From: Blautia pseudococcoides
GTDB lineage: Bacteria > Bacillota > Clostridia > Lachnospirales > Lachnospiraceae
Length of the DNA: 64,000 nt
NCBI RefSeq assembly: GCF_001689125.2
Contig: NZ_CP015405.2
Span: 463,001 to 527,000 of the forward strand
Reading direction: 5' to 3'
In this document: one piece after another, positions 37,149-61,006 of the stretch
How positions within the stretch are numbered: the first letter of the stretch is position 1
Layout: each line of letters begins with the position of its first letter
Notes under the pieces: generated by a model
Told to the model about the DNA's origin: nothing
What the model saw: the letters and a program-made list of their open reading frames with translations, nothing else
The model's database searches: none
Made by a program: the position numbers and the translations under genes

Positions 37149-37212
37149 ATTTAATACTTAGTTAATAAATGTAATAACTTTGCAAGAAATACAAAAAGAA
37201 GAGGAGTACACA

Positions 37213-40200
37213 ATGAAGAGATTAGGGAAAAGACTTCTATCCTACGCACTTGTACTGGCTATGCTTATGAGTTTGTATACGCCGGCATATGGTGCTCAGA
37301 TGAGTGAGGAGGATCCATCGGCATACGATACGCAGATGGGTGAAGAGACAGATACACCCACATCTGATCCCCGGATAAGTGGGGAGGCAGATACGCCGGC
37401 ACAAGATGCTCAGATGAGTGGTGATGCAGACACACCGGAGCAAGATGCTCAGATGAGTGGCGAGACAGATATACCGGCGGTAGAAGATGAGGCACCAAGT
37501 TCCGATGGGGAGATGTCGGGACAGGAAGATAGCCGGAAAGCGGAATTGCCGCTGAATTACATTCTGACACAGGAAGATGGCGTACATCAGTCTGTTATTG
37601 TTGAATTGGGAGATGTAGAGTCTACAGCTCTGGAAAGTGCTGTACTGACATATCATGATGGCGAAGGAGAAATACATACAGCCCAGGCTGAAGAAGTTGT
37701 GGAAAATGTAGCTGCATTTCTTCTTGATCTGCCTGCAGCCCAGCAGGAAAGGACTTTTATTTCAGTAAATGCCTCTGTTGCAGGTCAGGAGTATGAGACT
37801 CTTCTGAATCAACAGGAGGAGATGGAGCAGATTGAGATGAGCAGCGAAGAAGCTGCCCAGGTTGTTACGGATACTAAAAATGAAGAGGCAGGTCTTGATT
37901 CCCAGACAGTTGAGCAGGTGGAAAAAGCAGTGCTGTCTGCGGATGACAATGGAATATCTGCAGAAGCCATAAAGGAATCTCTTACTGAAAATAACCAATT
38001 GGCAGAAAACGCTGGTAATGGTATCCAGACATTTGCTCTGGGGGAAGATGGGGATGTCCCTACGGCCATGGCTGTAGAACCAAAACAGAAAGAACACTAT
38101 ATAGTTGTACTTGACCCGGGGCATGGAACCATAGATACCGATGGGTATGACAGCGGAGCTGAACACAAATTCAGTGACGGTACAAAATTCGTGGAAGCAG
38201 ACCTTACCATGAAAATTGCCAATTATTTAAAAGAGGAACTTGCGAAATATCCACAGCTTACAGTATATATGACCCATGATACAGTAGGCGCAAACAAGGC
38301 GATCAACATGACCTTGAACGAAAGAGTTGCATATGCCGCTAATAAACATGCTGATCTGCTGGTTAGCCTTCATTTGAATTCTTTTGATAAAGAGACTGCT
38401 CATGGTGCAGAGGTATTGGTTCCGAAAACAGGGAGATACAATACCGAGGTGGCAGAGAATGCGCAGAAGGCTGCTAATAATATTTTGAAAAGACTTACCT
38501 CTCTGGGACTTTATGACAGGGGACTTTTAGAAAAGGATTCCAGTGATTATCATTATCCTGACGGAAGCACTGCGGATTATTATGCAATTGTAAGAGAAGG
38601 ACTGAAAGCATCTATTCCTTCCATTATCGTGGAGCATGCATTTTTAAGTGGAAAAGATGATAAAAAGTTTTTGAATAATGAAGCTTCTATTAAAAATCTG
38701 GCTAAAGCAGATGCATATGGCATCGCGCAGTATTTTGGTATAGAGACTGGGGGAGAGACATATGAGCCGGTACCTGAACCAAAAGGAAAATGGAAAAAAA
38801 CAGGAGGTTCCTGGTATTATTATATCGGATCTGTAAAGCAGACCGGCTGGCAGAAGATAGATAACGCCTGGTATTATTTTAATGGCAGCGGTGTTATGCA
38901 GACCGGCTGGCAGATGATAGGAAATTACTGGTATTATATGAATTCTTCCGGTGTTATGCAGACCGGCTGGCAAAAAATAGACGGAAGCTGGTACTATCTT
39001 AATACCTCCGGAAGTATGCAGACCGGATGGAAGAAAATCTCCGGCAAATCATACTATCTGCAGGGAAACGGTGTTATGCTGGAAAGTGGCTGGCATATGC
39101 TGGGTAACTACTGGTATTATATGTCGGGAAGCGGAGCCGCATTGACCGGCTGGCAGAAGATAGGGGGCCAGTGGTATTATCTGGATAAAAATGGCCGAAT
39201 GAAGACCGGTTGGTATCAGGTCGATAAAAAATGGTATTATAGTGATGGAAGCGGAGTTATGCAGACCGGCTGGCTGTATACTTATAATACATGGTATTAT
39301 CTGAATGGAAGCGGAGTTATGGCAGAAGGCTGGACGCTGGTGGGAAGCACCTGGTATTATATGCAGCCCGGCAACGGCGCTATGAAGACCGGTTGGCAGA
39401 AAATAGACAGTAAGTGGTATTTTCTTGACGGAAGTGGCGCCATGCGTACCGGCGGATGGTTGAGTCAGGGAAATGTCTGGTATTATCTGAATGCAAACGG
39501 CTCCATGGCAGAGGGATGGATCCGTCTGGGAAATACCTGGTACTATATGCAGCCAAATAGTGGACATATGCGCACAGGGTGGTATCAGGTTGGAAAGAAA
39601 TGGTATTACAGTGATGGAAGCGGAGCCATGCAGACAGGCTGGCTGAAATTAGGTGATATCTGGTATTATTTGTCCGGAAGCGGGGCTATGGCGGAAGGAT
39701 GGAATTTTATCAACGGCAGCTGGTATTATATGACTCCAGGAAGCGGAGCTATGAGAACCGGATGGTTTACAGTAAATAATGTCTGGTATTACTGTAACGG
39801 GAGCGGAGCTATGCAGACCGGTTGGCTGCAGCTGGGAAATGTCTGGTATTATTTGAACAACAGTGGAGCGATGCTGACAGGCTGGCACACATTGGGCGGA
39901 AAGGATTATTATTTCAATAATTCCGGTGCATGGATACCGGATAAAAAAAAAGATAATCCAAAGAACTTATATGCCATAGAGGGAAGCAGCTCTGCAACTG
40001 TAGATCAAATGGTAAAGTATTATAAGAAATCGGGATGTACATATCCGTCTGCTGCACTGAAAAAGGGTGGTGCGGCAGATATTAAAACATTTGCTAAAAT
40101 TGTTTTAGAGGAAGCAAATGAAGAGGGAATAAAGGCAGAAGTCGTGTTCACCCAGGCTATGAAAGAAACCGGATGGCTCCAGTATGGAGGGGATGTGAAG

Positions 40201-40497
40201 GTAGAGCAGTTTAATTTTGCAGGCCTGGGAGCAATCGGTAATGGAGCAGCTGGAAATTCTTTTAAAAATGTCCGTACCGGCATACGCGCTCAGGTTCAGC
40301 ACTTAAAAGCGTACGCTTCCGACAAGGACTTAAAGAATGCATGTGTTGATGAAAGATTTCAGTATGTAACAAGAAAATCAGCAATGTACGTGGAATGGCT
40401 GGGGATTCCGGATAATCCAACCGGAGCCGGTTGGGCGGCAAGTAAAAATTATGGAAAAGATTTAGTTGAAATGATAACAAATTTGAAAAATTTGTAA
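37213..40497 (+). CDS. Bifunctional N-acetylmuramoyl-L-alanine amidase / glucosaminidase with central choline-binding-type repeats
   Basis: 1094 residues from the ATG at 37213 (GAGGAG upstream). Order: signal peptide (1-27, ending PAYGA); tandem 13-residue repeats of the DAQMSGDADTPEQ type (about 28-90); a linker domain to about 290; an Amidase_3 domain (about 300-515) with VVLDPGHG, VEADLTMKIA, SLHLNSF and the catalytic glutamate in VEHAFLSG; aromatic wall-binding repeats (about 525-910); and a C-terminal glucosaminidase-type domain (about 925-1094) with FTQAMKETGW containing the likely catalytic Glu, and the NFAGLGAIG block. Such enzymes cut both the peptide stem and the glycan of peptidoglycan, often for daughter cell separation. 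Repeats in the middle with catalytic domains at both sides is uncommon. Confidence 0.9.
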   Translation: MKRLGKRLLSYALVLAMLMSLYTPAYGAQMSEEDPSAYDTQMGEETDTPTSDPRISGEADTPAQDAQMSGDADTPEQDAQMSGETDIPAVEDEAPSSDGEMSGQEDSRKAELPLNYILTQEDGVHQSVIVELGDVESTALESAVLTYHDGEGEIHTAQAEEVVENVAAFLLDLPAAQQERTFISVNASVAGQEYETLLNQQEEMEQIEMSSEEAAQVVTDTKNEEAGLDSQTVEQVEKAVLSADDNGISAEAIKESLTENNQLAENAGNGIQTFALGEDGDVPTAMAVEPKQKEHYIVVLDPGHGTIDTDGYDSGAEHKFSDGTKFVEADLTMKIANYLKEELAKYPQLTVYMTHDTVGANKAINMTLNERVAYAANKHADLLVSLHLNSFDKETAHGAEVLVPKTGRYNTEVAENAQKAANNILKRLTSLGLYDRGLLEKDSSDYHYPDGSTADYYAIVREGLKASIPSIIVEHAFLSGKDDKKFLNNEASIKNLAKADAYGIAQYFGIETGGETYEPVPEPKGKWKKTGGSWYYYIGSVKQTGWQKIDNAWYYFNGSGVMQTGWQMIGNYWYYMNSSGVMQTGWQKIDGSWYYLNTSGSMQTGWKKISGKSYYLQGNGVMLESGWHMLGNYWYYMSGSGAALTGWQKIGGQWYYLDKNGRMKTGWYQVDKKWYYSDGSGVMQTGWLYTYNTWYYLNGSGVMAEGWTLVGSTWYYMQPGNGAMKTGWQKIDSKWYFLDGSGAMRTGGWLSQGNVWYYLNANGSMAEGWIRLGNTWYYMQPNSGHMRTGWYQVGKKWYYSDGSGAMQTGWLKLGDIWYYLSGSGAMAEGWNFINGSWYYMTPGSGAMRTGWFTVNNVWYYCNGSGAMQTGWLQLGNVWYYLNNSGAMLTGWHTLGGKDYYFNNSGAWIPDKKKDNPKNLYAIEGSSSATVDQMVKYYKKSGCTYPSAALKKGGAADIKTFAKIVLEEANEEGIKAEVVFTQAMKETGWLQYGGDVKVEQFNFAGLGAIGNGAAGNSFKNVRTGIRAQVQHLKAYASDKDLKNACVDERFQYVTRKSAMYVEWLGIPDNPTGAGWAASKNYGKDLVEMITNLKNL
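37291..37480 (+). repeat. Tandem 39-base repeats near the amidase N-terminus
   Basis: Four to five degenerate copies of a 39-base unit coding for DAQMSGDADTPEQ-like peptides. Copy number may vary between strains by slippage or recombination. Confidence 0.75.
38790..39945 (+). repeat. Choline-binding-type repeat array in the amidase
   Basis: About eighteen units of about 20 residues with the WYY...GSGVMQTGW pattern, coded by imperfect repeats of about 60 bases, placed between the two enzymatic domains. Confidence 0.85.
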
Positions 40498-40530
40498 TGA
40501 TAATATACATATCAGAACGTGGAAATAGTT

Positions 40531-40582
40531 AGAAAGGGTGTGTATCACAGGTTCTTATTGAACTGTGATACACACCCTTTCT
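40531..40582. terminator. Bidirectional terminator between amidase and esterase-like gene
   Basis: The 20-bp stem AGAAAGGGTGTGTATCACAG (40531-40550) pairs with 40563-40582, loop of 12 bases, flanked by A/T-rich ends. It lies between convergent genes. Confidence 0.9.
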
Positions 40583-40610
40583 GTTTCTTTATATTTTTTA
40601 GTGGAGCATT

Positions 40611-43600
40611 TCAGCGCCGCTGGCCTGTCCAGGCACCGCTGCCATTTACATAATATCCATCAGGAGTCCATGCGTTTGCATACATAACTCCATTGGAAGG
40701 ATTTAAATAATACCATGTATCATTTACATTCTGCCATCCTGTGGTCATAGCACCTAAACTGTTCATGTAAAACCACTTATTACCATCCAAAAGCCATCCT
40801 GTGGCCATAGATCCATCTCCGTATAGATAATACCTGGTACTGCCTTGTTTGAGCCATCCGGTCTGCATTACCCCTGATGAATTAGAATAATACCAGGTAT
40901 TGTTTATTTTAAACCATCCTCTGACAACCGCTCCACTATCTGTGAAATAGTACCATTTATTTCCCAGAGCAGCCCAACCTGTGGCCATAGAGCCATTTCC
41001 GTAAAAATAATATTTGGTATTGCCCTGCTCAAGCCAACCAGTCTGCATTATACCTGATGAATTAGAATAATACCAGATATTGTTTACTTTGAACCATCCT
41101 CTGGCAACAGCCCCGCTGTCTGTAAAATAATACCATTTGCTCCCCAATGCTACCCATCCGGTAGCCATGGCACCGCTGCCATACATATAATACTTAGTAT
41201 TGCCCTGCTTGAGCCATCCGGTCTGCATGACTCCGGCAGAATTGGAATAATACCAGATATTATTTATTTTATACCACCCGACTGCCGCTGCACCGTTGCT
41301 GTTGAAGTAATACCATTTATTTCCGGTATATACCCAACCGGTTGCCATGGCACCGTTTCCTGCCAGATAGTATTTGCTTTGGCCTATAGTGTGAAGACCG
41401 GTCAGCATTTCACCTGATCCATTGGAATAATACCAGATACCGTTTATCTCGTACCAGCCAGTGAGCATAGCACCCGAATTATCAAGATAATACCATTTTT
41501 TATCAACAAAAATCCATCCGGTCATCATGGCGCCGCTGCCGGAGGTATAATAGTATCTGCCGTTTGACTTAATCCACCCTGTCTGCATTTTTCCGTCAGA
41601 ACTAGAATAATACCATATATTACCCACCGTATACCATCCGGTTTTTGCGCCATATTCAGTGAAATAGTACCAGCTCTTATTGAGGTATACCCAACCGGTG
41701 GCCATAGCACCGCTGCTATTAAAATAATACTTTTTGCCATCAATTGTCTGCAGACCTGTAAGCATCTTTCCGGAAGCATCAGAATAGTACCAGATTCCAT
41801 TTACCCGGTACCACCCTGTGCACATAACGCCATCACCGTTAAAATAATACCATGTATTTCCTTGCTTCATCCACCCGGTCACAATATAACCGGATGCGTT
41901 GAAATAATACCATTCTCCATGAATTTGCAGCCAACAACTTGAAGGATAAGTACCATTGCCAAATTGATACCAATAACCCGTTGCATTATGCTGCCAGTTT
42001 CCATCTTTAAAATTGGGGATCCATTTTCCTGAAGAATCATAATAATAGCCGTTTACATATTGGTCCTGAGCCATGGCCCCAGTTGATGTATCAAAATAAT
42101 AATAATATTTCCCTATATTTTTTCGTCCGGTCTGCATCTGGCCATTGGAATCCATGTAATACCATTTTCCACTGACTTTTTGCCAGCCGGTAGTCATATA
42201 ACCTTTAGAATCCGTATAGTACCATTTACCATTTACAAGTACCCATCCTACGGCCATAGATCCATCCTCTTTTAGATAGGACCATTGACCTGAAGCGTTT
42301 TGCAGCCATTTGTTGGTGGAGGCATTGTATGAGTTTTCAAAATAATACCAGTTATCCTTGGAATCTTTTTTCCATCCATTCGTTTTCTTAGGAAAGCCAT
42401 CATAATAGTATATGTGTCGATAGGGGGATGAGCCTTCAGCAGATGCAACGAATTCCTTGCCCTTTGGTATATTATTACTTAGTCCTTTGTCAAGATTGAT
42501 TACAATTGCTTTTATATATGGTGCGTACCATGCGGTTGGATAAAGGGCGGTTCCGGATTGTCCTAATTTTAGAAGCGAATCCAGGGTGCCTATATTATTA
42601 TCGACACTGGAGTTGGATACATAATTATACTTACCTGTCATAATCGCAATGTCCGGACTCAGTGCCTTCAGATAATTATAGGTGTTGGAACCATAAAAGC
42701 CATGATGCCCAAGTTTCAACACATCCACATGCCCAAGCCGTTTGGCAAGAGCAGTCTCCGCTCCGATGTAATTGTTAATATCACCAGCCAAAAAGGCAGT
42801 CTTTTTAGTTGTCATAGAAGTGACTTTAACTCCAAGGCTGTAATAGTTGGCATCTGGCTGAGGCCGTTTAACACCATAATTCATTATTTCAAGCTTCATG
42901 CCATTTTTACCACCCAGCATAAAGACTGGTGTAGAGACAGAACCCACGGTTTTACCTTCAAATATACCACTCTGCGCAGGTGCCGCATAAGTATCGCCAT
43001 ATGCATTATTTGGGTCATCCGGATGATCAGGGTCTACCTGGTCACTGGGAGGAATATCTTCAACGGTCAGATCATCAGAAGAACCATCATCAGAAGAATC
43101 AAGGGGTTCGTCTGTTGTTCCGCTTTCTTCCTGGTAAACGCTGAAGAACTGTAAAGTATCCTCAGGAATTATGTTTGCTGATTCAGGAGTGGAAGGATTT
43201 TCTGTACTGCAGATAAAATCAAATATATTTTCTTCCTCTAAAGGAGCAAAGGTATATCCCTTGGATTTTGGACTGATCTTGTAAGAGAACGGTGTTTTGG
43301 TATCATCATATTTTCTGATGCCTGTAAAGTTATACGTCCAGATACCGTCTCTCCCGGGAACTTCCTGAGCCTCTACGGTGACATCAGCAGGCAGTTTCGT
43401 TTCCGGATCTGCAGTTATATAGGATAAAGTCACTTCTATACGTGAGGGTAAAATCGTTGTGCCATCTGTATTGCTGCCTTGTGCTGCAGAGTCTGTATCC
43501 TGTGAATCTGTGTCGGTGTCTTGTGGTGCAGCATTTGTGTCCTGTGACTCATTGTCCGTGTCTTCCTGCGATTCCTGAGGAATGTCTTTGGGAACAGAAT

Positions 43601-44516
43601 CCGTGTCTGGTCTTTCTTTTCCCATATTTTGAGAATCGGAATCTGTGTCCTGCATTTCTTTGCCGGCATCTTGAGGAACAGAATCTGGATTCTGTGATTT
43701 TGTGTCAGTGTCTTGATTGGAAGCGTCTATATCCTGTGGAGCAGCGCCTATGTTCTGTGCCTCCTTGTCGATGCCTTGAGGGGCATTGTCTGTCTCCTGA
43801 GACTCTGTATCTGGATTTTGTGCCGGTGGCAATGTTTCATCTGTATCTTCCGGTCCGGCGGGATTGCTGTCATCTGGGTTTGTAGTATCTTCAGATTCCG
43901 GTGGAACCTCTGTGTCTTTATTCATTATAATACTGCCGCTTACAGTCACAGTCTCCGGATAAAGGGGCGCGCTTGTATTGAAAGACTGGATTAATGTGGC
44001 GCCTGTGTCCTGCGCTGCCTTCACCATGTGGTCGTAAACATACAAATTATCCCATAAACGGGTACTATCCGTAACATCATTATCAGAATAGGCTTCTATA
44101 TAAACACGTTTAGGATGAAATGCATATATGATGTCATCGGCTGACCCGATATGATCACTATGAGGATGCGTACCAATGTAGAATTCAAAATTATCCTTTG
44201 TGACACCTGCTGCCTGAAGATAGGCAATTACATCCTGTTCAAATCCGTTTCCCTTTACAATACCCGGCCGGCTTGGATAATCTGGTTTGCTTCCGCTTGG
44301 ATAATCATTGTCTTCTCCAGAATCCACCATGCCGAATTTTCCATTACATTCCAAAAGAATTGCATCTGTATTGTCTGCTAAGGTTAAAAAGTGTATTTTG
44401 CTGGTATTATTTGCTGCCCATACAGTCTCCGATTGCGCCGGAGGAACCAGGTCGAGCGTCAGCAATACCATAAAAATCAACAAGAAACATACAGCTTTTT
44501 TGAGTTTCCCCTTCAT
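40611..44516 (-). CDS. Pce/CbpE-like phosphorylcholine esterase: MBL domain split by a Cna-B-containing insertion, plus choline-binding-type repeats
   Basis: A 1301-residue secreted protein. After a signal peptide (1-34) the N-terminal half of a metallo-beta-lactamase domain runs to about residue 185, with the metal motif HPHSDH (His117, His119, Asp121, His122). The blocks KIHFLTLADNTDAILLE, MVDSGED and STRLWDNLYVYD closely resemble pneumococcal Pce (CbpE), an enzyme that removes phosphocholine from teichoic acid. The domain resumes at about 520-685 with LEIMNYG, LAGDINNYIGAE (Asp579) and GHHGF (His604/605). Between lies about 335 residues: an Asp/Thr/Gln-rich repeat stretch (about 200-352), a Cna-B-like domain (about 357-437) and an acidic linker. 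About 28 aromatic wall-binding repeats (710-1295) follow. AAAGGG precedes the ATG. Esterase activity is inferred from similarity to Pce. Confidence 0.85.
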   Translation of the reverse strand: MKGKLKKAVCFLLIFMVLLTLDLVPPAQSETVWAANNTSKIHFLTLADNTDAILLECNGKFGMVDSGEDNDYPSGSKPDYPSRPGIVKGNGFEQDVIAYLQAAGVTKDNFEFYIGTHPHSDHIGSADDIIYAFHPKRVYIEAYSDNDVTDSTRLWDNLYVYDHMVKAAQDTGATLIQSFNTSAPLYPETVTVSGSIIMNKDTEVPPESEDTTNPDDSNPAGPEDTDETLPPAQNPDTESQETDNAPQGIDKEAQNIGAAPQDIDASNQDTDTKSQNPDSVPQDAGKEMQDTDSDSQNMGKERPDTDSVPKDIPQESQEDTDNESQDTNAAPQDTDTDSQDTDSAAQGSNTDGTTILPSRIEVTLSYITADPETKLPADVTVEAQEVPGRDGIWTYNFTGIRKYDDTKTPFSYKISPKSKGYTFAPLEEENIFDFICSTENPSTPESANIIPEDTLQFFSVYQEESGTTDEPLDSSDDGSSDDLTVEDIPPSDQVDPDHPDDPNNAYGDTYAAPAQSGIFEGKTVGSVSTPVFMLGGKNGMKLEIMNYGVKRPQPDANYYSLGVKVTSMTTKKTAFLAGDINNYIGAETALAKRLGHVDVLKLGHHGFYGSNTYNYLKALSPDIAIMTGKYNYVSNSSVDNNIGTLDSLLKLGQSGTALYPTAWYAPYIKAIVINLDKGLSNNIPKGKEFVASAEGSSPYRHIYYYDGFPKKTNGWKKDSKDNWYYFENSYNASTNKWLQNASGQWSYLKEDGSMAVGWVLVNGKWYYTDSKGYMTTGWQKVSGKWYYMDSNGQMQTGRKNIGKYYYYFDTSTGAMAQDQYVNGYYYDSSGKWIPNFKDGNWQHNATGYWYQFGNGTYPSSCWLQIHGEWYYFNASGYIVTGWMKQGNTWYYFNGDGVMCTGWYRVNGIWYYSDASGKMLTGLQTIDGKKYYFNSSGAMATGWVYLNKSWYYFTEYGAKTGWYTVGNIWYYSSSDGKMQTGWIKSNGRYYYTSGSGAMMTGWIFVDKKWYYLDNSGAMLTGWYEINGIWYYSNGSGEMLTGLHTIGQSKYYLAGNGAMATGWVYTGNKWYYFNSNGAAAVGWYKINNIWYYSNSAGVMQTGWLKQGNTKYYMYGSGAMATGWVALGSKWYYFTDSGAVARGWFKVNNIWYYSNSSGIMQTGWLEQGNTKYYFYGNGSMATGWAALGNKWYYFTDSGAVVRGWFKINNTWYYSNSSGVMQTGWLKQGSTRYYLYGDGSMATGWLLDGNKWFYMNSLGAMTTGWQNVNDTWYYLNPSNGVMYANAWTPDGYYVNGSGAWTGQRR
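40640..42400 (-). repeat. Choline-binding-type repeat array in the Pce-like protein
   Basis: The longest of the three arrays, about 28 units with the GW-x-NxWYYF-x-GAMATGW pattern. Two adjacent blocks of about 200 bases near 40800-41250 are nearly identical, a sign of recent internal duplication. Confidence 0.85.
43430..43860 (-). repeat. Asp/Gln/Thr-rich degenerate tandem repeats inside the split MBL domain
   Basis: Degenerate units of the SQDTDS-AAPQDTDT type, coded by imperfect repeats of about 12-30 bases. They form the first part of the insertion between the two halves of the catalytic domain. Confidence 0.8.
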
Positions 44517-44615
44517 AATTATTACCCTTTCCTTTTCTGCCCTAACTGAATATGTGAATAAGAGGGCCTTTTATATGATTTCAAGCCGTCACTGAAACGG
44601 CTGGTTTGCACTAAG

Positions 44616-45605
44616 CTATTTACCGTTCCGTAATTTGTTTGCCCTATATTTCATAAAAAAAGGGATTAACATATTGATCATATAATAACGTACTTTTGGA
44701 ACAGGTTTCATAATAAAATTAAAGAATCTCCAGCATACAAAGTATACTTTCCAGCCGTCCTCATAGGGAGTATCTTTCCAATCTGTCATTCCGAGATACT
44801 TTTCATAGTATTTTTTATATTTATGTGTATTTCCTGCCCTCCACGGGCGTTCTTCTCCTAGATAATGTATGATGACTGGGTTCTTGATACAGCTGTCAAA
44901 TTCCTCTTTGGAGAAATATTTTAGCGGACTTACCAGATTGGAGAGAAATTTATATGGATATTGATAGAAAATATTACAGAAATTGTATTTAGGCATTATA
45001 GATAATATTTCATCTTTTAAGGCTCCATTTATAGCGTCCTGATCATTTGCAAAGAGATTACCATTATGATCTCTGTAATATTGTATTATTTTTTTGTCAG
45101 ACTCTTTTTTCCGCCACTTTTCCAAATCTACCAGTAATACTCCGGCATTATGATAAAAATATCCCTTTAGTCCAAGAGCTTCTTTTCGTTTTTTATCTAC
45201 AGTAGGTTCAATACTCATTCCCAGTGTCTTATCTTTTAGATCCATATGCCACAATTCTTCCAAACTGGAAATGACGATCGTATCACCATCTAAATATAAA
45301 ATTCTTTTGAGATTTTCCGGCAATATCCGGCCCATGATCAGCCTGGCTAAAACAATTGGATTCCAGCCGGATGTATCAATGTCAAAATCAAAATACTGTT
45401 TTATATCTGCTATTTCAATAAAAGTAATATTACGGTTATATTTTTCTGCTAAACGTTTTAGGTTATCTTTGTTTTTTAAAGAAATACCAAAAGACATAAT
45501 ATAAAAAGTGATTTGAGGTTCTTTTGAGTTATTTTCGCAAATTGATGCGATCCCTGCCCCTAATTGTGGTACAAAATTATTATTAACAGTATATAAAAAA
45601 TTCAC
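44616..45605 (-). CDS. Glycosyltransferase family 8
   Basis: 329 residues from a GTG at 45603-45605, selected because AAAGGAG lies 6 bases upstream; an upstream extension lacks a ribosome binding site. The GT8 retaining transferase fold is visible from VNFLYTVNNNFVPQLGAGIASI, the DxD metal motif in RILYLDGDTIVISSL, and C-terminal HYLGEERPW. GT8 enzymes transfer glucose or galactose from UDP-sugars. The C-terminal 40 residues carry amphipathic, basic helices that may contact the membrane. It is transcribed towards the Pce-like gene and away from glf. Confidence 0.92.
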   Translation of the reverse strand: MNFLYTVNNNFVPQLGAGIASICENNSKEPQITFYIMSFGISLKNKDNLKRLAEKYNRNITFIEIADIKQYFDFDIDTSGWNPIVLARLIMGRILPENLKRILYLDGDTIVISSLEELWHMDLKDKTLGMSIEPTVDKKRKEALGLKGYFYHNAGVLLVDLEKWRKKESDKKIIQYYRDHNGNLFANDQDAINGALKDEILSIMPKYNFCNIFYQYPYKFLSNLVSPLKYFSKEEFDSCIKNPVIIHYLGEERPWRAGNTHKYKKYYEKYLGMTDWKDTPYEDGWKVYFVCWRFFNFIMKPVPKVRYYMINMLIPFFMKYRANKLRNGK

Positions 45606-45659
45606 TGCTGTCTCCTTTCGTCCGAACACGCATACAGCGGTGCTTTATGTCGCAAACCA

Positions 45660-45668
45660 ATTATAGCA
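45660..45668 (-). promoter_or_regulatory. Extended -10 promoter of the GT8 gene
   Basis: On the minus strand TGCTATAAT, an extended -10 box with no good -35, about 55 bases before the GT8 start. Confidence 0.4.
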
Positions 45669-45716
45669 TATTTATGAGTGATATGGGATAGTAAAATTTT
45701 CTTTATAAATTAAGAA

Positions 45717-45745
45717 TTGATTCTTATGAATAAACAGGGTATAAT
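45717..45745 (+). promoter_or_regulatory. Sigma-A promoter of the glf operon
   Basis: TTGATT (45717-45722), 17-base spacer, TATAAT (45740-45745), about 36 bases before the glf start. Confidence 0.65.
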
Positions 45746-45781
45746 AATTTTATTTGAGATTGGATGATATGGGAGACAAAT

Positions 45782-46891
45782 ATGAAGAAATATGATTATG
45801 TCATTGTAGGCAGCGGCCTTTTTGCAGGTGTATTTGCAAAAAGTGCAGTAGAACACAACAAAAGGTGTCTTGTTATAGAAAAAAGACATACAGTTGGTGG
45901 TAATCTGTACTGTGAAGAGGTGGAAGGCATTCAAGTACATAAGTATGGAGCCCATATTTTTCATACAAGCAGCCGTAAAGTATGGGATTTTGTAAACAAT
46001 CTTGTGGAGTTTAACCGGTTTACCAATTCACCGGTTGCTAATTATCGTGGGGAAATCTATAACTTACCTTTTAATATGAATACTTTTAATAAAATGTGGG
46101 GGGTTACTACACCGGCAGAGGCACATAAGATAATTGAAACACAGAAGACAGCAGTAACGGGGACACCAAGAAATCTTGAGGAGCAGGCCATAAGTCTGGT
46201 AGGTTATGATATATATGAAAAGTTAATAAAAGGGTATACAGAAAAACAGTGGGGTAGGAAATGCTGTGAACTGCCTTCTTTTATTATTAAAAGGATACCT
46301 GTAAGATATACTTATGACAATAATTATTTCAATGATTTGTATCAGGGTATTCCTATCGGAGGATATAATATACTGGTTAAAAAGCTATTTTCAGGGTGTG
46401 ACATAGAAACCGGTGTTGATTTTAATAAAAACAGAGAAAAATACCGGGAACAGGGAGATAAGCTGTTATATACAGGCACCCTTGATTCTTACTATGATTT
46501 CATATACGGAGATTTGGAATATAGAAGTCTGCGGTTTGAAACAGATGTTTTGGAACTGGAGAATTATCAGGGGGTTGCCGTTGTTAACTATACTGATAGT
46601 GAGGTCCCGTTTACAAGAATCATAGAGCATAAACATTTTGAAAACAGCAGATCAGAAAAAACGGTTATTACCAGAGAATATCCGGCCGTCTGGGAAAAGG
46701 GCAAAGAGCCTTACTATCCGGTTAATGACAGCAGAAACCAAGAATTGTATAAAAAGTATGCTAAACTTGCGGAAATAGAAAATAATACACTGTTTGGAGG
46801 CAGATTGGCAGAGTATAAATATTACGATATGGATAAAGTAATAGAAGCAGCACTCCGTCTTGCCGGGAAAGAATTTTCCGCTGATAAATAA
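45782..46891 (+). CDS. glf: UDP-galactopyranose mutase
   Basis: 369 residues from the ATG at 45782 (GGGAGACAAAT upstream; the earlier in-frame ATG lacks a site). FAD-binding motif DYVIVGSGLFAGVFA, the GGNLYCEE block, YGAHIFHTS, and the conserved IKGYTEKQWGRKC and IPIGGYN blocks mark Glf. The enzyme converts UDP-galactopyranose to UDP-galactofuranose, the donor for Galf in surface polysaccharides. It is the first gene of a rightward glycan operon with licD-like, flippase and GT genes, so the polymer made here probably contains Galf. Confidence 0.95.
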   Translation: MKKYDYVIVGSGLFAGVFAKSAVEHNKRCLVIEKRHTVGGNLYCEEVEGIQVHKYGAHIFHTSSRKVWDFVNNLVEFNRFTNSPVANYRGEIYNLPFNMNTFNKMWGVTTPAEAHKIIETQKTAVTGTPRNLEEQAISLVGYDIYEKLIKGYTEKQWGRKCCELPSFIIKRIPVRYTYDNNYFNDLYQGIPIGGYNILVKKLFSGCDIETGVDFNKNREKYREQGDKLLYTGTLDSYYDFIYGDLEYRSLRFETDVLELENYQGVAVVNYTDSEVPFTRIIEHKHFENSRSEKTVITREYPAVWEKGKEPYYPVNDSRNQELYKKYAKLAEIENNTLFGGRLAEYKYYDMDKVIEAALRLAGKEFSADK

Positions 46892-46951
46892 ATATATTGT
46901 TTGTTTATAGAAAGGATGGCGTGGTGAAGGACACCATATTTCAGAGCAATT

Positions 46952-47818
46952 ATGGAGAATAAGACATATAATGAGAAAGACCTTAGGAAACTGCAGTTGG
47001 TGGAATTGGAAATTTTGAAAGATTTTATAGCCATCTGTGAAAAGCATAAATTGCCTTATTTTGCAACAGGGGGAACAGCTATTGGGGCCCTCCGCCATCA
47101 GGGATTTATTCCATGGGATGATGATATTGACGTATGTATGCTGAGAGAAGACTATAATAAATTTATGGAAATAGCGCCTGAAGAAATGGGAGAAAAGTAT
47201 ATCTTCATGTCAACGGATACGGAAAAAAGATATCCTCTCATGTTTGGAAAAATGATCAAAAAAGGGACAAGGTTTATTGAAGATGCATATCAGCAGGGAA
47301 ATTACCCCTTGGGAATATTTATTGATATTTTTCCTTATGACAGGACATCTGAAAATGAAAAGTTAAGAAAAAAACACCAAAAAAAGACCTGGTTTTGGGC
47401 AAGGCTTCAGGTGCTGACTCTGATTCCCAATCCCAATCTTCCTCCTGAGGTTAAGGGGTGGAAGAAAATAGCGGCACAATGGGGTTGTAAGATCCTGCAT
47501 AATTTGTTTAAGCTGATCCATATAACGCCGCAGATGTGCACGGATAAATATTTGAAATGGGCTGCAAATTGTGAGGACGATTCAGATTTATATATTGATT
47601 ATTCCTACATATCCGGCGAAAATTTAATGATCCGTACAAAGGATTCTTTCCCTGTAGTGAAATGCAAATTTGAGGACACGGAAGTGGCATTGGTCAAAGA
47701 CTTTGATGCGTTTCTCCGGCCTGAATATGGGGAGTACATGCAAATGCCGCCGGAAGATGAAAGACACAATCATTATGCCTCATTTATAGATTTTGGAGAT
47801 GGAGAAACCGGCAATTGA
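46952..47818 (+). CDS. licD: LicD family protein (phosphocholine transferase-like)
   Basis: A 288-residue LicD/fukutin-type nucleotidyltransferase-fold protein: LQLVELEILKDFIAICEKH, then GTAIGALRHQGFIPWDDDIDV with the catalytic Asp residues, and GIFIDIFPYD. In pneumococcus and Haemophilus LicD enzymes move phosphocholine from CDP-choline to teichoic acid or LPS sugars; other LicD family members transfer other phospho-groups. The presence of three choline-binding-type proteins and a Pce-like esterase in the neighbourhood supports the choline interpretation. licA, licB and licC are not in the window. The ribosome binding site is weak. The next gene overlaps by 4 bases if its TTG start is used. 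Confidence 0.87.
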   Translation: MENKTYNEKDLRKLQLVELEILKDFIAICEKHKLPYFATGGTAIGALRHQGFIPWDDDIDVCMLREDYNKFMEIAPEEMGEKYIFMSTDTEKRYPLMFGKMIKKGTRFIEDAYQQGNYPLGIFIDIFPYDRTSENEKLRKKHQKKTWFWARLQVLTLIPNPNLPPEVKGWKKIAAQWGCKILHNLFKLIHITPQMCTDKYLKWAANCEDDSDLYIDYSYISGENLMIRTKDSFPVVKCKFEDTEVALVKDFDAFLRPEYGEYMQMPPEDERHNHYASFIDFGDGETGN

Positions 47819-49140
47819 AAAAAAACATGAAAAATGATTACAAAGGCGGAAAAAAATTATCCATGAAACAGAGCATACTTTGGAATTCCTGGGGAAGCAT
47901 GTTCTATTTGGGATGCCAGTGGCTTTTGACTATTCTGGTGGTGAGAATTTCGGGAGTAGAGGATGCCGGACTTCTCTCCTTAGCTATGTCAGTAAGTAAT
48001 ATATGGTATAGTTTAGCTGTATATGGCATGAGAAATTTTCAGGTCTCTGATACAAATGAGAAGTATTCAAACGGTTTGTATATTTCCAGCAGGATTTTTA
48101 CTGGAAGTGCAGCTTTGTTTGGGTGTATGGCCTATACGGTGGTATTGTCTTACAGCTTGGAACAAAAAATATGTATCATTATTTATTTTGTCTATAAACT
48201 GTCAGAGGCTCTCTTTGATGTTTTTGCCGGAATATATCAAAAATTGTGGCGCCTTGATTATGTAGGAAAGTCCCTTACTATAAGAGGTATTTTGACTTTG
48301 GGTACGTTTTCTGCAGCTTTATTCTTATCCGGAAATCTTGCTTTGACGCTCTTTGGAATGACGGTATGCTGTATGTTGTCTGTGTGTTTGTATGATATTC
48401 ATTTTGCCGGAAAGATAACAAATATACGTGTTAGCTGGGATAAAAAGAAATTAAAAGAATTATTGATTGAATGCTTCCCTCTGGTCGTATATACTATGTT
48501 GTCTACAGCGATCGGTACGATTCCCAGATTATTCATAGAGCGATATCTGGGGAATTATAAGCTTGGGATCTATGGTTCTGTAGCTACGCCGACTTTAATT
48601 ATACAAATGGGCGCCACCTATATCTTTAATCCTTTTGTCACACTTTTTGCTGAGAGGTATCACCAGAAGAATAAAAAAGGTTTTTTGAACGCCTTGGCTT
48701 TATGTTCCGCTGCCGTGGCAGGATTGGCCGTAGCAGGAGTGATAGGCGGAAAATTCCTGGGTAAATGGGGACTGCATCTGCTTTTGGGAGAGGAAGTGGC
48801 TGCCCATTCAGATTTGTTGATTCCTTTGATCATATGTACAGTGCTGACGGCATTCGCCTGGCTTCTCTGCGGTGTCCTGACCGCGATCAGAGATTTTAAG
48901 GGGCTTGTAGCCGCTAATGCTGCAGCAGTTGCAGTCAGCTACATTTCTTCTGCGATTTTAGTCAGAAGATATGATATGCAGGGCGGAAGTGCAGCGCTGG
49001 CCCTCGCAACAATTGTGGAAATTATCTTTTTAGCACTGTGTCTGACGAAAAGTGTCCATGATAATTTTACGGTGAATGGGCAGACAGAAAACTCGAAATT
49101 AAAGAGAAACGGAGCGGTTAGAAAAGATGAAAGGATATAG
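47815..49140 (+). CDS. Polysaccharide flippase, Wzx/MATE-like
   Basis: A 441-residue membrane protein with about twelve to fourteen transmembrane helices and the Wzx opening NSWGSMFYLGCQWLLTILVVRISGVEDAGLL. It would flip a lipid-linked oligosaccharide to the outside of the membrane for polymerisation or transfer. The start is uncertain: TTG at 47815 overlaps licD by 4 bases; ATGs at 47827 and 47863 are alternatives, and the family N-terminus fits any of them. It overlaps the following GT2 gene by 14 bases. Being in the same operon as glf and licD suggests its substrate carries Galf and the LicD-added group. Confidence 0.88.
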   Translation: MKKNMKNDYKGGKKLSMKQSILWNSWGSMFYLGCQWLLTILVVRISGVEDAGLLSLAMSVSNIWYSLAVYGMRNFQVSDTNEKYSNGLYISSRIFTGSAALFGCMAYTVVLSYSLEQKICIIIYFVYKLSEALFDVFAGIYQKLWRLDYVGKSLTIRGILTLGTFSAALFLSGNLALTLFGMTVCCMLSVCLYDIHFAGKITNIRVSWDKKKLKELLIECFPLVVYTMLSTAIGTIPRLFIERYLGNYKLGIYGSVATPTLIIQMGATYIFNPFVTLFAERYHQKNKKGFLNALALCSAAVAGLAVAGVIGGKFLGKWGLHLLLGEEVAAHSDLLIPLIICTVLTAFAWLLCGVLTAIRDFKGLVAANAAAVAVSYISSAILVRRYDMQGGSAALALATIVEIIFLALCLTKSVHDNFTVNGQTENSKLKRNGAVRKDERI

Positions 49141-49927
49141 AAGAAAAGAACATACTTTTGCTATATGTGCCTATAAAGAAAGTCCATATCTGGAAGAATG
49201 TATTCTGTCATTAAAAAAGCAGACCAGAAAAAGCCATATTATAATAGTTACATCAACACCGAATGAATACATAGAGGAACTGAGCCTAAAATACGGCATA
49301 CCTCTTTTTGTAAACCATGGGGAACACGGAATTACACAGGATTGGAATTTTGCCTATCAATGTGCAGATTCCAGGTATGTTACCATAGCGCATCAGGATG
49401 ATATTTATCTTGCCGAGTATTGGCAGAGGATTTATGAATATCTCAGACGCTCAAAAAGACCGCTGATTGTTTTTGGAGATTATGGGGAACTGCGGAACGG
49501 AAGGCCTGTACTCAATAACCGGCTGTTGAGGATCAAACGGTTTATGCTGATGCCGTTGAGATTCAAGGTGTTCTGGAGATCTAAGTTTGTAAGACGGAGA
49601 ATTTTGTCCCTGGGGTGTCCTATTTGTTGTCCTTCTGTGACCTTTGTAAAAGAGAACTTGCATGAGCCTGTCTTTAAAGCAGGGTTCCGCAGTGCGGAAG
49701 ACTGGGAGGCGTGGGAAAAACTTTCCAAAGAGAAAGGCAGTTTTGTGTATGTAAATAAAATTTTGATGTACCATAGAATCCATGAGGATTCAGAAACCAG
49801 TATTATTCTTGGTGATGATGCGAGAAAAAGAGAAGATTTCATTATGTTTAGGAAATTTTGGCCCGAACCAATTGCCAGAATACTTGTAAAGCTGTATAGT
49901 TCAAGTGAAAAATCCAATAATCTATAA
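49127..49927 (+). CDS. Glycosyltransferase family 2
   Basis: A 266-residue inverting GT-A glycosyltransferase. It has the N-terminal nucleotide-binding strand TFAICAYKESPYLEECI, the metal region read as AHQDDIYL (HQDD instead of the usual DxD spacing), and the acceptor-side block GFRSAEDWEAWEKL. No transmembrane anchor is visible. It overlaps the flippase gene by 14 bases, so translation is coupled. The sugar transferred is unknown. Confidence 0.87.
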   Translation: MKGYRRKEHTFAICAYKESPYLEECILSLKKQTRKSHIIIVTSTPNEYIEELSLKYGIPLFVNHGEHGITQDWNFAYQCADSRYVTIAHQDDIYLAEYWQRIYEYLRRSKRPLIVFGDYGELRNGRPVLNNRLLRIKRFMLMPLRFKVFWRSKFVRRRILSLGCPICCPSVTFVKENLHEPVFKAGFRSAEDWEAWEKLSKEKGSFVYVNKILMYHRIHEDSETSIILGDDARKREDFIMFRKFWPEPIARILVKLYSSSEKSNNL

Positions 49928-49959
49928 ATAATGAATCAGACAAGATAAAAGGAAAACGT

Positions 49960-50646
49960 ATGAAGAAATTAATCATTATACCTGCTTACAATGAAGAGGC
50001 ATGCATAGAGAAGACAGTTGAGAATATTAAGAAAGCTGCACCATCATTTGACTATATTATTATAAATGACTGTTCCAAAGACAATACGAAAGAGATATGT
50101 GAAAAAAATCAATTTCATTATATTAATCTCTCTGTTAATCTGGGAATAGGAGGGGCGGTGCAAACTGGTTATATCTATGCCCTTGAGAACCATTATGATG
50201 TGGCTGTACAGGTAGACGGCGACGGACAGCATGATGCGGCTTTTTTAAATGAAATGGCAGCGTTTATGGAAAAACATCAGGCGAATATGGTGATTGGATC
50301 CAGATTTATTGAGAAAAAAGGATTTCAGTCATCTGGTCTCAGAAGAATGGGGATTAAGTTTTTTACGTGGCTTATCAAGATTCTTACGGGAAGGGGCATC
50401 ACAGACCCTACATCAGGCCTTCGCATGGTAGACAGGGAGATCATTCAGATATTTGCTGAAAACTACCCCAAGGATTATCCGGAGCCGGAGACAGTGGTGG
50501 CTGTCATCAGAAAAAACATGAAGGTAAAAGAAATTCCTGTTGTCATGAAGGAGAGGCAGGGAGGTGTTTCCTCAATTTCTCCTAAAAAATCGGTATACTA
50601 CATGATTAAGGTAAGCCTTGCAATAATTATAGAATGTCTTCGATAG
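49960..50646 (+). CDS. GT2 glycosyltransferase, dolichyl-phosphate mannose synthase-like
   Basis: A 228-residue GT2 with KLIIIPAYNEEACIEKTVENI, the INDCSKDNT block, NLGIGGAVQTGY, VQVDGDGQHDAAFL and DPTSGLRMV. This pattern marks DPM1-like enzymes that load a sugar onto a polyprenyl phosphate carrier. There is no C-terminal transmembrane region, unlike the GtrB-like gene at 34037. DUF2304 and DUF2142 genes follow at once, an association that recurs in bacterial glycan loci: polyprenyl-linked sugar synthesis, small membrane partner, and large membrane protein. Confidence 0.9.
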   Translation: MKKLIIIPAYNEEACIEKTVENIKKAAPSFDYIIINDCSKDNTKEICEKNQFHYINLSVNLGIGGAVQTGYIYALENHYDVAVQVDGDGQHDAAFLNEMAAFMEKHQANMVIGSRFIEKKGFQSSGLRRMGIKFFTWLIKILTGRGITDPTSGLRMVDREIIQIFAENYPKDYPEPETVVAVIRKNMKVKEIPVVMKERQGGVSSISPKKSVYYMIKVSLAIIIECLR

Positions 50647-50655
50647 AGGTGAAGT

Positions 50656-51072
50656 ATGAATATAAGAACACAAATTATAGTTGCCGTTATTGTGTTGGCT
50701 GCGTTTGCTTATCTGATCGGCAAGATAAGAAAGAATAAATTGGAATTAAAATATGCGTTATCCTGGATCGTAATGGGAGCTTTAATTTTACTGCTGGATT
50801 TTTTTCCGGGAATTATTGCAAAATTAGCCGATATCTGCGGGATTGGAATGCCTATAAATATGATTTTCTTTTTGGGTTTCTGCTTTCTGCTGGCATTGAC
50901 ATTCACTTTGAGCGTACTGGTATCCGGTTTGTCTCAAAAGACTAAGGTGTTGACACAGAGAATCGCTATTCTGGAAGAAGTTATATCCAGAGAACGTCAT
51001 GGGCAAACAGTTGTAAAGGAGATTGAATTGCACAAAGAAAAGGATGTATCAGACAATGACAGAGAGAGTTAG
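50656..51072 (+). CDS. DUF2304 domain membrane protein
   Basis: A 138-residue protein with three transmembrane helices (about 5-22, 32-52 and 68-92) and a charged C-terminal tail, matching the DUF2304 family. Family members are found next to DPM1-like GT2 enzymes and may anchor them in the membrane, which fits here because the GT2 lacks its own anchor. The end overlaps the DUF2142 gene start by 17 bases. The biochemical role is unproven. Confidence 0.82.
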   Translation: MNIRTQIIVAVIVLAAFAYLIGKIRKNKLELKYALSWIVMGALILLLDFFPGIIAKLADICGIGMPINMIFFLGFCFLLALTFTLSVLVSGLSQKTKVLTQRIAILEEVISRERHGQTVVKEIELHKEKDVSDNDRES

Positions 51073-52948
51073 GGCGAAAATTTGTTGGTGGAAAAAACTG
51101 CTGATCGTTTTGATCAGTGCAATACTGGCTGGCTTTATTGTGGAGGGGATATTGCAGTTTTGCGAGGCGGGAAAAAGCCATGTGTCCCAAGTGGTCAGTC
51201 TTCAGGATATACAGGTTAAGAATGGGGATAAGATGGAAAATCTCTATGTTATGAAGGAGCATGGAGAGATAAAAATTGATGTTTCCGGAATGTATATTAA
51301 TAAATTTCAGTATTATTATACAGCAGAAAAGAATTTTCAGGCTGAAATTATTGTAGAAACCCCTAATTTGTATGGGAATTGGGAGAAACAGAAAATTCAA
51401 GATCCCTGCCGCAGCAATTTAAATAATTCCTTTGTCAACATTAAAAATAATGTCAAGTCCATTACGATACGGCTGCCAGAGGGGGTAACAGTTGGGGATT
51501 TTACAGTTAACAATGCAAAGGATTCCAATGGATACAGAATTTTGTATATTTGTGTTTTTGTTGGAGTGTTCCTATCTTTTCTTTTATTTAAAAAAGAGAT
51601 AGGCAAACGTGTGGAGCTGGGTTTTCTCCTGTTCTCCATGACAATAGGGATGCTTTTTATAGCTCTCCAGCCGCCTCAGTTTACAAGCTGGGATGAACAT
51701 ATACACTTTTATCATGTATTTGACTTCTTTGAAGGAAAACATGTGGAGTGGAACCAGGCAGAATATTATGCGTACATTAATCCGGAATCCAAGAAAAAAG
51801 TGGCTTTTACTTCCAAGGAGGAAAAAGCTCTGCAGATTCAGTATTTTAATGAACATACCCAGGACAGCGGATATTCTTATGAAAAAAGTAGTTTTACTGT
51901 CAGCCAATTAGGATATCTTCATATGGCTATTGTAGTGGCAGCCGGGAATCTTATAGGACTTCCTTTTTATGTGGTATATTTGTTGGGGAAAGCTGCTAAC
52001 TTATTGCTGTATTGTATCCTTATGTTTTTTGCTATAAAAAGCATCCCTATAGCTAAGCATTTATTAGCAGCTCTGGCTTTGATGCCTGCACCTATGGTTC
52101 TAGCAACAGCGTATTCTTATGATGTGGTTTTAATTGGTTTCTTAACTTTGGGCATGGCGCTGTTAGTCAGAGAATTTTATTATCCGGATAAAAAAATCAG
52201 CAGAGGAATGCTGGTTTGTATTCCATTCTTCTTTTTATATGGGAGCTGTCCAAAGGCTATTTATATACCGCTGGTGCTTAGCGCGGTGTTTTTGCCACAG
52301 AAAAAGTTTAAGAATAAAAGACAGTGCTGGATATGGAAATCTGCGATTATTTTAACCTGTATTTTGCTAATGCTGACTTTCCTGGTACCTACAGCAGGCA
52401 ATACCATGGCTTCTGATGTCAGAGGGGGAGATACGGATGTAGGACGCCAGATTCAAGTGATACTTGGACATCCCTGGGCATATATACAGATTTTATTTGA
52501 AAATATCAAGAATACATTTAACAGTTATATGATGGGGATAGAAAGTATCTCTACTATGGCGTATGAAGGCATTTTTGAGTTTTATATGGTGGTGACTGCT
52601 CTTGTGCTTGGAGTAGCCTGTACAGAACCCAGAAAAGTCATGAACGGAACGACTAAGAGGTCAATGAATATATTTAAAATAAGCATACTGCCTCTTGCTG
52701 CCGGTGTACTGGTTCTCATATGGACTGCTATGTATCTGGCATTTACAGAAGTTGGTGAGGTAGTCATTAAAGGCGTACAGGGTAGATATTATATTCCACT
52801 GTTACTTCCATTACTTATGGTTTTTTATACTGACAAGATTCATACAAAATGGAAAGAAGAGAATTATAATCTTGTTATGTTTATGATAGTTCTTCTTATC
52901 TGGCATTTGGCCCTGTATTCAAGATTTTTGATTCCATATTGCAGTTAG
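51056..52948 (+). CDS. DUF2142 family large membrane protein, putative GT-C-type
   Basis: 630 residues from the ATG at 51056 (AAAAGGATG upstream). A transmembrane helix near the N-terminus is followed by a periplasmic-type beta domain (about 40-165) and about ten further transmembrane helices. The block QPPQFTSWDEHIHFYHVF after the second helix resembles the acidic first loop of GT-C glycosyltransferases (Asp-Glu pair). DUF2142 proteins are thought to be membrane glycosyltransferases using polyprenyl-linked sugars; this is family-level inference. It is the last gene of the glf operon and would use the sugar lipid made by the GT2 two genes earlier. Confidence 0.82.
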   Translation: MTERVRAKICWWKKLLIVLISAILAGFIVEGILQFCEAGKSHVSQVVSLQDIQVKNGDKMENLYVMKEHGEIKIDVSGMYINKFQYYYTAEKNFQAEIIVETPNLYGNWEKQKIQDPCRSNLNNSFVNIKNNVKSITIRLPEGVTVGDFTVNNAKDSNGYRILYICVFVGVFLSFLLFKKEIGKRVELGFLLFSMTIGMLFIALQPPQFTSWDEHIHFYHVFDFFEGKHVEWNQAEYYAYINPESKKKVAFTSKEEKALQIQYFNEHTQDSGYSYEKSSFTVSQLGYLHMAIVVAAGNLIGLPFYVVYLLGKAANLLLYCILMFFAIKSIPIAKHLLAALALMPAPMVLATAYSYDVVLIGFLTLGMALLVREFYYPDKKISRGMLVCIPFFFLYGSCPKAIYIPLVLSAVFLPQKKFKNKRQCWIWKSAIILTCILLMLTFLVPTAGNTMASDVRGGDTDVGRQIQVILGHPWAYIQILFENIKNTFNSYMMGIESISTMAYEGIFEFYMVVTALVLGVACTEPRKVMNGTTKRSMNIFKISILPLAAGVLVLIWTAMYLAFTEVGEVVIKGVQGRYYIPLLLPLLMVFYTDKIHTKWKEENYNLVMFMIVLLIWHLALYSRFLIPYCS

Positions 52949-52994
52949 CTCTGGTTCCATGCAGCTGGTTGAAGAGCAGATTTCTCTTATAATA

Positions 52995-53023
52995 TTGAAA
53001 TTCTGCTTATATGATGGTATAGT
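52995..53023 (+). promoter_or_regulatory. Sigma-A promoter of the carboxypeptidase gene
   Basis: TTGAAA (52995-53000), 17-base spacer, TATAGT (53018-53023). The leader contains the hairpin at 53112-53136. Confidence 0.6.
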
Positions 53024-53111
53024 ATACAGGGTCAGGAGGAAGCCTTCGTGGAAAAGATAAGGTGTTTACTTATAATATTACCGGGCATGTATGCAGAAAA
53101 ATAAAATCATA

Positions 53112-53136
53112 CAGCAGTATCCAAAGGATACTGCTG
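53112..53136 (+). promoter_or_regulatory. Perfect hairpin in the carboxypeptidase leader
   Basis: CAGCAGTATCC (53112-53122) and GGATACTGCTG (53126-53136) with an AAA loop, followed by GTTTGCG. It lies downstream of the promoter and 29 bases before the start codon; it could be an attenuator or mRNA stabiliser, or a weak terminator of the upstream operon. Confidence 0.5.
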
Positions 53137-53164
53137 GTTTGCGTATAAGGAGATTTTTATAAAA

Positions 53165-54463: not shown

Positions 54464-54509
54464 CAGGTTAATAATGAAAATTAAAATAAATAAAAGTGAG
54501 GAAAAAGTT

Positions 54510-55076
54510 ATGGGAAAAATAACAGTAGAAACATGTGAGATTGATGGTTTAAAAGTAATTACGCCGGCTGTGTTTGGCGATGAGCGCGGTTATTTTATGG
54601 AAACATATAATTACAATGATTACAAAGCTGCAGGCATTGATATGGAATTTGTACAGGACAACCAATCCAGCTCAAAAAAAGGCGTATTAAGAGGTCTTCA
54701 TTTCCAGATTCATTATCCGCAGGACAAGTTAGTACGTGTTGTAAGCGGGGAAGTATTTGATGTGGCTGTTGATTTGCGTCCGGGATCCAAGACATTTGGA
54801 AAATGGTATGGTGTGGTTTTGTCAGCAGAAAATAAAAAACAGTTTTTTATACCTAAAAATTTTGCACATGGTTTTGTGGTTCTTTCCGAACATGCGGAAT
54901 TTGCATATAAATGTACGGATTTCTACCATCCTAATGATGAGGGCGGATTAAAATGGAATGACCCGGATATTGGAGTTGAATGGCCGATACCTCAGGGAAT
55001 GACGGAAAAAGATTTGACCATTTCTGAAAAAGATCATAATTGGAGCGGAATTAAAGAGTATATGGAAAGCAAATAA
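54510..55076 (+). CDS. rfbC: dTDP-4-dehydrorhamnose 3,5-epimerase
   Basis: 188 residues from the ATG at 54510, chosen by the GTGAGG site upstream and by family length; upstream in-frame starts would run into the carboxypeptidase gene. Cupin-fold motifs VFGDERGYFMETYN, DNQSSSKKGVLRGLHFQ and FIPKNFAHGFVVLSE are present, including the catalytic His in LRGLHFQ. RfbC makes dTDP-4-keto-L-rhamnose, one step before dTDP-L-rhamnose. rfbA, rfbB and rfbD are not in the window. It heads an operon of export and transferase genes, so a rhamnose-containing polymer is likely. Confidence 0.95.
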   Translation: MGKITVETCEIDGLKVITPAVFGDERGYFMETYNYNDYKAAGIDMEFVQDNQSSSKKGVLRGLHFQIHYPQDKLVRVVSGEVFDVAVDLRPGSKTFGKWYGVVLSAENKKQFFIPKNFAHGFVVLSEHAEFAYKCTDFYHPNDEGGLKWNDPDIGVEWPIPQGMTEKDLTISEKDHNWSGIKEYMESK

Positions 55077-55089
55077 ACAGGAGCAGAAT

Positions 55090-55899: not shown

Positions 55900-55911
55900 G
55901 GAGAAAATTGC

Positions 55912-60064: not shown

Positions 60065-60087
60065 TAATGCCGGAGGAGGGAGTTTCA

Positions 60088-60993: not shown

Positions 60994-61006
60994 AAGGAGT
61001 GCCAAA

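Follow-up and report, generated by a model that had tools for sequence, protein, structure and literature searches.

On the pneumococcal surface, the enzyme Pce (CbpE) resets how much choline the wall contains; phosphocholine also serves as an immune epitope. A review describes the Pce module as two near-equivalent regions (PMC4929436). Here we describe a Pce-like choline-binding esterase encoded in a 64,000-nucleotide stretch of the Blautia pseudococcoides genome (NZ_CP015405.2, positions 463,001 to 527,000; hereafter the window), a genome that consists of a single contig of 5,128,746 bases. Its catalytic domain has the metallo-beta-lactamase (MBL) fold of Pce type and is interrupted between its halves by about 345 extra residues, which most likely hold a Cna-B-like domain that is itself opened by a long linker (Table 1). 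We consider it probable that the protein is a secreted, choline-anchored phosphorylcholine esterase that removes phosphocholine from its own LicD-decorated wall, with a normal catalytic fold around a nested accessory module.

Comparison with PDB sequences using phmmer aligned residues 38-180 with residues 5-148 of Pce (2bib; independent E-value 1.4e-31) and residues 563-628 with residues 188-253 (5.3e-5), in the same order. The two matching pieces are separated by 39 residues in 2bib and by 382 residues here. His117, His119, Asp121, His122, Asp579, His604, and His605 are invariant in all 31 alignment rows and presumably include the zinc ligands. Asp579 within LAGDINNYIGAE falls opposite position 203 in the chain sequence of 2bib (by counting along the alignment), and His604-His605 of GHHGF opposite positions 228-229. 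A first-pass annotation of the DNA had called the open reading frame and these motifs at the positions given in Table 1, with Pce-like blocks in order on either side of an insertion, and all of this was borne out. The phmmer alignment and the match of the predicted fold rule out a chance resemblance to Pce. Among the PDB matches are also clostridial toxins, but their best listed stretches fall within the repeats (residue 746 onwards) and are uninformative on the catalytic part. The C-terminal repeats (residues 718-1301) match Pfam Choline_bind_3 at 4.8e-103 (14 stretches) and Choline_bind_1 at 3.6e-101 (22 stretches).

The insert follows the strand 'ATLIQ' and precedes the strand 'PVFMLGG', and thus lies in the connection between the catalytic halves, between two strands as first annotated. 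Between fixed alignment columns ('..ATLI' at 179 to 'STPVFMLGG' at about 530) it measures 351 residues, compared with 6 in the shortest relatives. The extra stretch is therefore about 345 residues, a figure that depends on the column cut, rather than the 335 or so of the original estimate. Relatives with and without the insertion, which that annotation had proposed to look for, were both found. Across the same columns, 18 of the 31 rows have 6-22 residues, five (L005, L006, L008, L051, and L055) have 67-126 residues without Cna-B, and eight (our protein, L046, L002, L003, L047, L050, L053, and L054) have 185-360 residues with Cna-B, whose copy number ranges from 0 to 2 among the relatives. The short state is common, and our protein (351 residues) is near the long extreme (360 residues in L002). 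The same nested architecture occurs in L046, L002 (Blautia parvula, NZ_CP084061.1), and L003 (Oliverpabstia intestinalis), with inserts of 329, 360, and 315 residues and linkers that differ from ours in sequence and length. Because these four genomes of different species share it in one open frame each, an assembly artefact or a mis-joining of genes is ruled out. In the same alignment, L048, L049, L061, L063, and L064 carry another insertion, immediately behind the LTAD/LTSD motif and ahead of the HH motif, which marks a second tolerant site.

The Pfam profile Cna_B (PF05738) matches our insert over profile positions 14-74 with 17.9 bits, below the curated cut-off of 22.3, and a Pfam scan of the whole protein returned no Cna-B match at E 0.1. 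We therefore call the domain Cna-B-like. Ten insert segments were scanned with PF05738, of which five pass (L003, L047, L050, L053, and L054); L046 (22.2 bits), L002 (20.1 bits), and our protein fall below the cut-off, unlike L003 (27.8 bits), and L051 and L008 have no match. Four of the five passing relatives are linker-free and carry Cna-B directly after an 'APxYP' flank (L047, 8.6e-16; L050, 7.1e-9; L053, 8.1e-21; L054, 1.1e-19), with two stretches each in L053 and L054. The profile search suggested in the first-pass annotation thus fell short on the protein itself and succeeded on its linker-free relatives.

A profile built from the six linker-free copies of these four relatives matches our protein in two pieces. 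Profile positions 1-21 fall at residues 183-203 (8.1 bits, weak alone and partly flank), and positions 21-101 fall at residues 349-438 (36.1 bits, 4.2e-12, 11 sequences searched). AlphaFold2 predicts a strand at model positions 155-164 (residues 189-198) ahead of a disordered stretch, with a predicted local distance difference test score (pLDDT) below 50 over model positions 171-317 (residues 205-351). Given the split profile match and this strand, we place the Asp/Gln/Thr/Pro-rich linker, as the most likely arrangement, in the first loop of Cna-B, and Cna-B in turn in the lobe connection. The same split is seen in L046 and L003 and, more weakly, in L002. The original placement of the whole Cna-B-like domain after the Asp/Gln/Thr-rich part is hence revised: the first strand (about 189-198) precedes that part and the remainder (about 352-438) follows it. 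The linker (residues 201-351) has a net charge of -37 and contains a 42-base tandem repeat (43464-43564, 2.4 copies).

The Lys and Glu that form and catalyse the isopeptide bond of Cna-B, which we take to lie two residues before a Trp and four after a Tyr, are absent by eye from the aligned positions in all six linker-free copies, three of which have a Glu one residue earlier; our protein has Ile196 and a Pro there. Their absence alone does not exclude a Cna-B fold. Searching six frames of the genome with PF05738 at E 1e-3 gave no match and so no local donor; since our own copy also scores below this limit, an equally degenerate donor could have escaped the search. Because linker-free relatives exist, Cna-B may have been gained first and the linker second. 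A tree built on the N-terminal half alone (31 rows, 142 columns) resolves little: 22 of its 28 inner branches are open, and bootstrap support is unsettled. On it Cna-B needs four changes, and a single origin is compatible with it.

In the return linker, 10 of the 13 long inserts carry a motif, loosely written VDPxxPxDP, where shuffled sequences would lead one to expect 0.155; the pattern was drawn after viewing the alignment, and the rows are related. Our copy, DQVDPDHPDDPNN, is predicted to be ordered, with pLDDT 84/83 in model blocks 451-470 (residues 485-504). Since the motif also occurs in L051 and L055, which are without Cna-B, the site may be older than some of its contents. We further compared our gene with the same-genus copy L046, where dS (synonymous divergence) reaches about 1 or exceeds it, with 2.74 for the linker; dN/dS, the ratio of nonsynonymous to synonymous divergence, is therefore rough. 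It comes to 0.03 and 0.02 for the catalytic halves and 0.06 for the choline-binding repeats; within the insert it is 0.10 (first-strand piece), 0.14 (linker), 0.11 (remainder of Cna-B), and 0.17 (return linker). Over aligned residues the halves are 92% and 95% identical and the linker 50%, with 22 of its 151 positions gapped. These comparisons suggest that the enzyme is kept and that the insert drifts more, yet not freely.

Genes for choline phosphorylation and for LicD-type transfer are present in the organism. Beside the LicD-family gene in the window there is a second one at genome positions 4149494-4150150. A gene cluster (L069, 7167-10877) encodes an EamA transporter, a nucleotidyltransferase, and a protein in which a choline kinase is fused to a further nucleotidyltransferase; it resembles the lic pathway. 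Delimited more widely (L069 7167-11848; genome 4122166-4126847), the probable lic-type cluster adds a HAD hydrolase, and the fusion is a 604-aa protein with winged-helix, nucleotidyltransferase, and choline-kinase parts. With the Pce N-terminal half as the single query at E 1e-15, which undercounts distant forms, Pce was found in 6 of 20 genomes of the genus, 19 of 397 family-sample genomes, 4 of 392 order-sample genomes, and, among 398 phylum-sample genomes, our own genome only (own included throughout). Relatives also occur in Actinomycetota (L004 and L010). Choline-kinase matches below 1e-15 were found in the six Pce genomes of the genus plus G406, and two LicD matches in exactly these six (one of those in G400 is partial and weak). 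Across the loci of 29 relatives, at phmmer E 1e-10 and in stretches that vary in length and lack a background rate, a LicD-like open reading frame was found at 14 loci, a further choline-binding one at 14, and repeats on Pce itself at 28. A phage record from human faeces (MT836647.1) encodes, at 12133-12459, a stretch that weakly matches the N-terminal half of Pce (28.7% identity).

In the explanation that we favour, the protein would be secreted and then held on phosphocholine residues by its choline-binding repeats. Its two-zinc site would remove phosphocholine from the cell's own LicD-decorated wall glycans, and this removal would reset where choline-binding proteins sit. The catalytic domain is expected to fold normally even though the chain leaves it between the halves. 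The insert would form a surface-exposed accessory module, probably non-catalytic, comprising an Ig-type Cna-B-like domain whose first loop is stretched into a 150-residue disordered acidic linker and a return by an acidic linker with one ordered motif. As to the purpose of the module, spacing or surface contacts are our best guess. The computations establish the homology, the predicted fold, the conservation of the motifs, the nesting, and the variable filling of the insertion site; activity on phosphocholine, the own-wall substrate, and an exposed, non-catalytic module are inferred.

Several observations weigh against this explanation. The first-pass annotation had proposed superposing a predicted structure on Pce; the predicted model indeed has a Pce-type MBL fold, but the Foldseek alignment to 2bib runs through the insert, with a root-mean-square deviation of 10.3 and a query template-modelling score of 0.38. 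The Cna-B match of our protein is below the Pfam cut-off. Of the 14 genomes of the genus that lack Pce, 5 have a single LicD match, and in two (G401 and G409) choline kinase is matched weakly, at values slightly over the cut-off; neither LicD nor choline kinase is specific to Pce genomes. LicD-family enzymes also have other substrates, 15 of the 29 relative loci have no LicD-like open reading frame in the fetched stretch, and the relatives are phylogenetically linked, so that the value from a Fisher test overstates their independence. A different MBL hydrolase anchored by the choline-binding repeats, such as a ComEC-like nuclease or phosphodiesterase, would fit the partial NCBIfam ComEC match (TIGR00361) and the rank of ComEC as second-best fold family for the predicted model; that match reaches 41.8 bits against a cut-off of 190, and we regard such an enzyme as highly improbable.

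Other explanations concern the insert rather than the enzyme. It is conceivable, if doubtful, that the insert has no selected function and is close to neutral: a surface loop tolerant of change would have acquired Cna-B by recombination and then grown through slippage at repeats. No part of the protein changes faster than the linker, which also contains the tandem repeat, and the length of the insert is highly variable; yet the dN/dS values of the rest of Cna-B and of the return linker, and the retention of VDPxxPxDP across distant rows, argue otherwise. The first-pass annotation had also raised an adhesive or regulatory role. An adhesive arm, in which Cna-B and the disordered linkers reach for a ligand on the host or on a neighbour while the enzyme is mainly a scaffold on its choline-binding repeats, would suit the long acidic linkers, the varying number of Cna-B copies, and the membership of Cna-B in the collagen-adhesin B region family. 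However, the B regions of Cna act as stalks and do not themselves bind collagen, the insert has no known binding residues, and catalytic halves so much more constrained than the insert are not mere scaffold, which makes this arm unlikely. Regulation from the lobe connection, by gating substrate access or coupling binding to activity, is quite unlikely: the insert does sit between the two catalytic halves, which PMC4929436 describes as near-equivalent regions, and it shares a return motif that is predicted to be ordered in our copy, as if docked, but the 18 rows without a sizeable insert keep the catalytic motif residues, so the active site can be conserved without the insert. A broader idea that we hold to be decidedly improbable is that the lobe connection of clostridial Pce is an evolvable socket, framed by an APxxP flank and the VDPxxPxDP return motif, into which extracellular modules fit interchangeably (no module, linkers, a single or double Cna-B, or Cna-B with a nested linker) and whose occupancy by ligand or tension would change phosphocholine trimming. 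Overall, the first-pass annotation was correct in outline, and its interpretation is partly supported.

Table 1. Features of the esterase gene and two other genes in the window (positions in the window; residues of the encoded protein).
Feature	Position	Strand	Basis
Pce-like choline-binding esterase, 1301 aa	40611..44516	-	open reading frame and translation; matches Pce 2bib_A
Likely ribosome-binding site AAGGAAAGGG	44525..44534	-	read from sequence
Putative N-terminal signal peptide, residues 1-34	44415..44516	-	by eye: basic start, hydrophobic core, VWAA
MBL/Pce catalytic domain, N-terminal half, residues 35-179	43980..44414	-	
HPHSDH metal motif, residues 117-122	44151..44168	-	
'SAPLYPE' flank and first strand of split Cna-B-like domain, residues 180-200	43917..43979	-	
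Asp/Gln/Thr/Pro-rich linker, residues 201-351, predicted disordered	43464..43916	-	pLDDT, composition
Remainder of Cna-B-like domain, residues 352-438	43203..43463	-	Pfam Cna_B and family hmm
Acidic return linker, residues 439-528	42933..43202	-	net charge -21
DQVDPDHPDDPNN motif stretch, residues 484-504, predicted ordered	43005..43067	-	
MBL/Pce catalytic domain, C-terminal half, residues 529-700	42417..42932	-	
LAGDINNYIGAE, residues 576-587, with invariant Asp579	42756..42791	-	
GHHGF, residues 603-607, with invariant His604-His605	42696..42710	-	
Choline-binding repeats, residues 718-1301	40614..42365	-	Pfam Choline_bind_3, Choline_bind_1
LicD-family gene, putative phosphocholine transferase	46952..47818	+	PF04991 1e-42; among polysaccharide genes
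Converging neighbour: choline-binding amidase and glucosaminidase	37180..40497	+	PF01520, PF01832, choline-binding repeats

The converging neighbour has an Asp/Thr/Ala-rich N-terminal repeat region, and a further choline-binding protein, with an L,D-transpeptidase (YkuD) domain, is encoded at 28901-31663. A strong inverted repeat (40530-40583, more than 20 pairs, -38.3 kcal/mol, z -7.6) lies between the converging choline-binding genes and is likely a shared bidirectional terminator. Counts from a promoter and terminator scan were near those of shuffles and were not used. A set of wall polysaccharide genes spans 44616-62389 and includes GT8, UDP-galactopyranose mutase, LicD, Polysacc_synt, DUF2142, an ABC-2/Wzt transporter, and a WsaF glycosyltransferase.

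That gut Blautia and relatives have a diversified Pce family, along with LicD, genes for choline phosphorylation, and further choline-binding proteins, suggests phosphocholine remodelling at the surfaces of common gut commensals. Because insert lengths vary naturally at a single site, the way in which a catalytic MBL fold tolerates and uses a nested domain is directly testable. We found no report of a Pce-type esterase with such a domain insertion in the open-licence literature, judged by titles and the starts of abstracts, which does not show its absence in print. The same held for phosphorylcholine esterases of Lachnospiraceae, for phosphocholine and licD in that family, and for phosphorylcholine with choline-binding proteins in gut commensals. 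A paper on Gemella lists phosphocholine esterases and Cna-B proteins apart in the passages concerned (PMC7136413).

Among known systems, beta-CASP MBL nucleases (RNase J and CPSF-73) also have an inserted domain, which differs from the one described here and presumably sits elsewhere in the MBL fold. As a profile, the six linker-free Cna-B copies match the collagen adhesin of Staphylococcus aureus (1d2p, 1.1e-39); the Cna-B domain (PF05738) here lies within an enzyme domain and, in our protein, is split by the linker of about 150 residues. Pneumococcal Pce/CbpE (2BIB, 1WRA, and 12QJ) shares with our protein the catalytic fold, the motif order, the residues of the metal motifs, the C-terminal choline-binding repeats, and a putative signal peptide (assigned here by eye). 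Pce has 10 repeats according to PMC4929436, whereas our esterase has 22 Choline_bind_1 stretches, and the Pce structures 2BIB and 1WRA are without such an insertion. Of interest for how domains are inserted and for wall choline in gut commensals, the esterase represents a novel form of a known enzyme rather than a system of a new kind.

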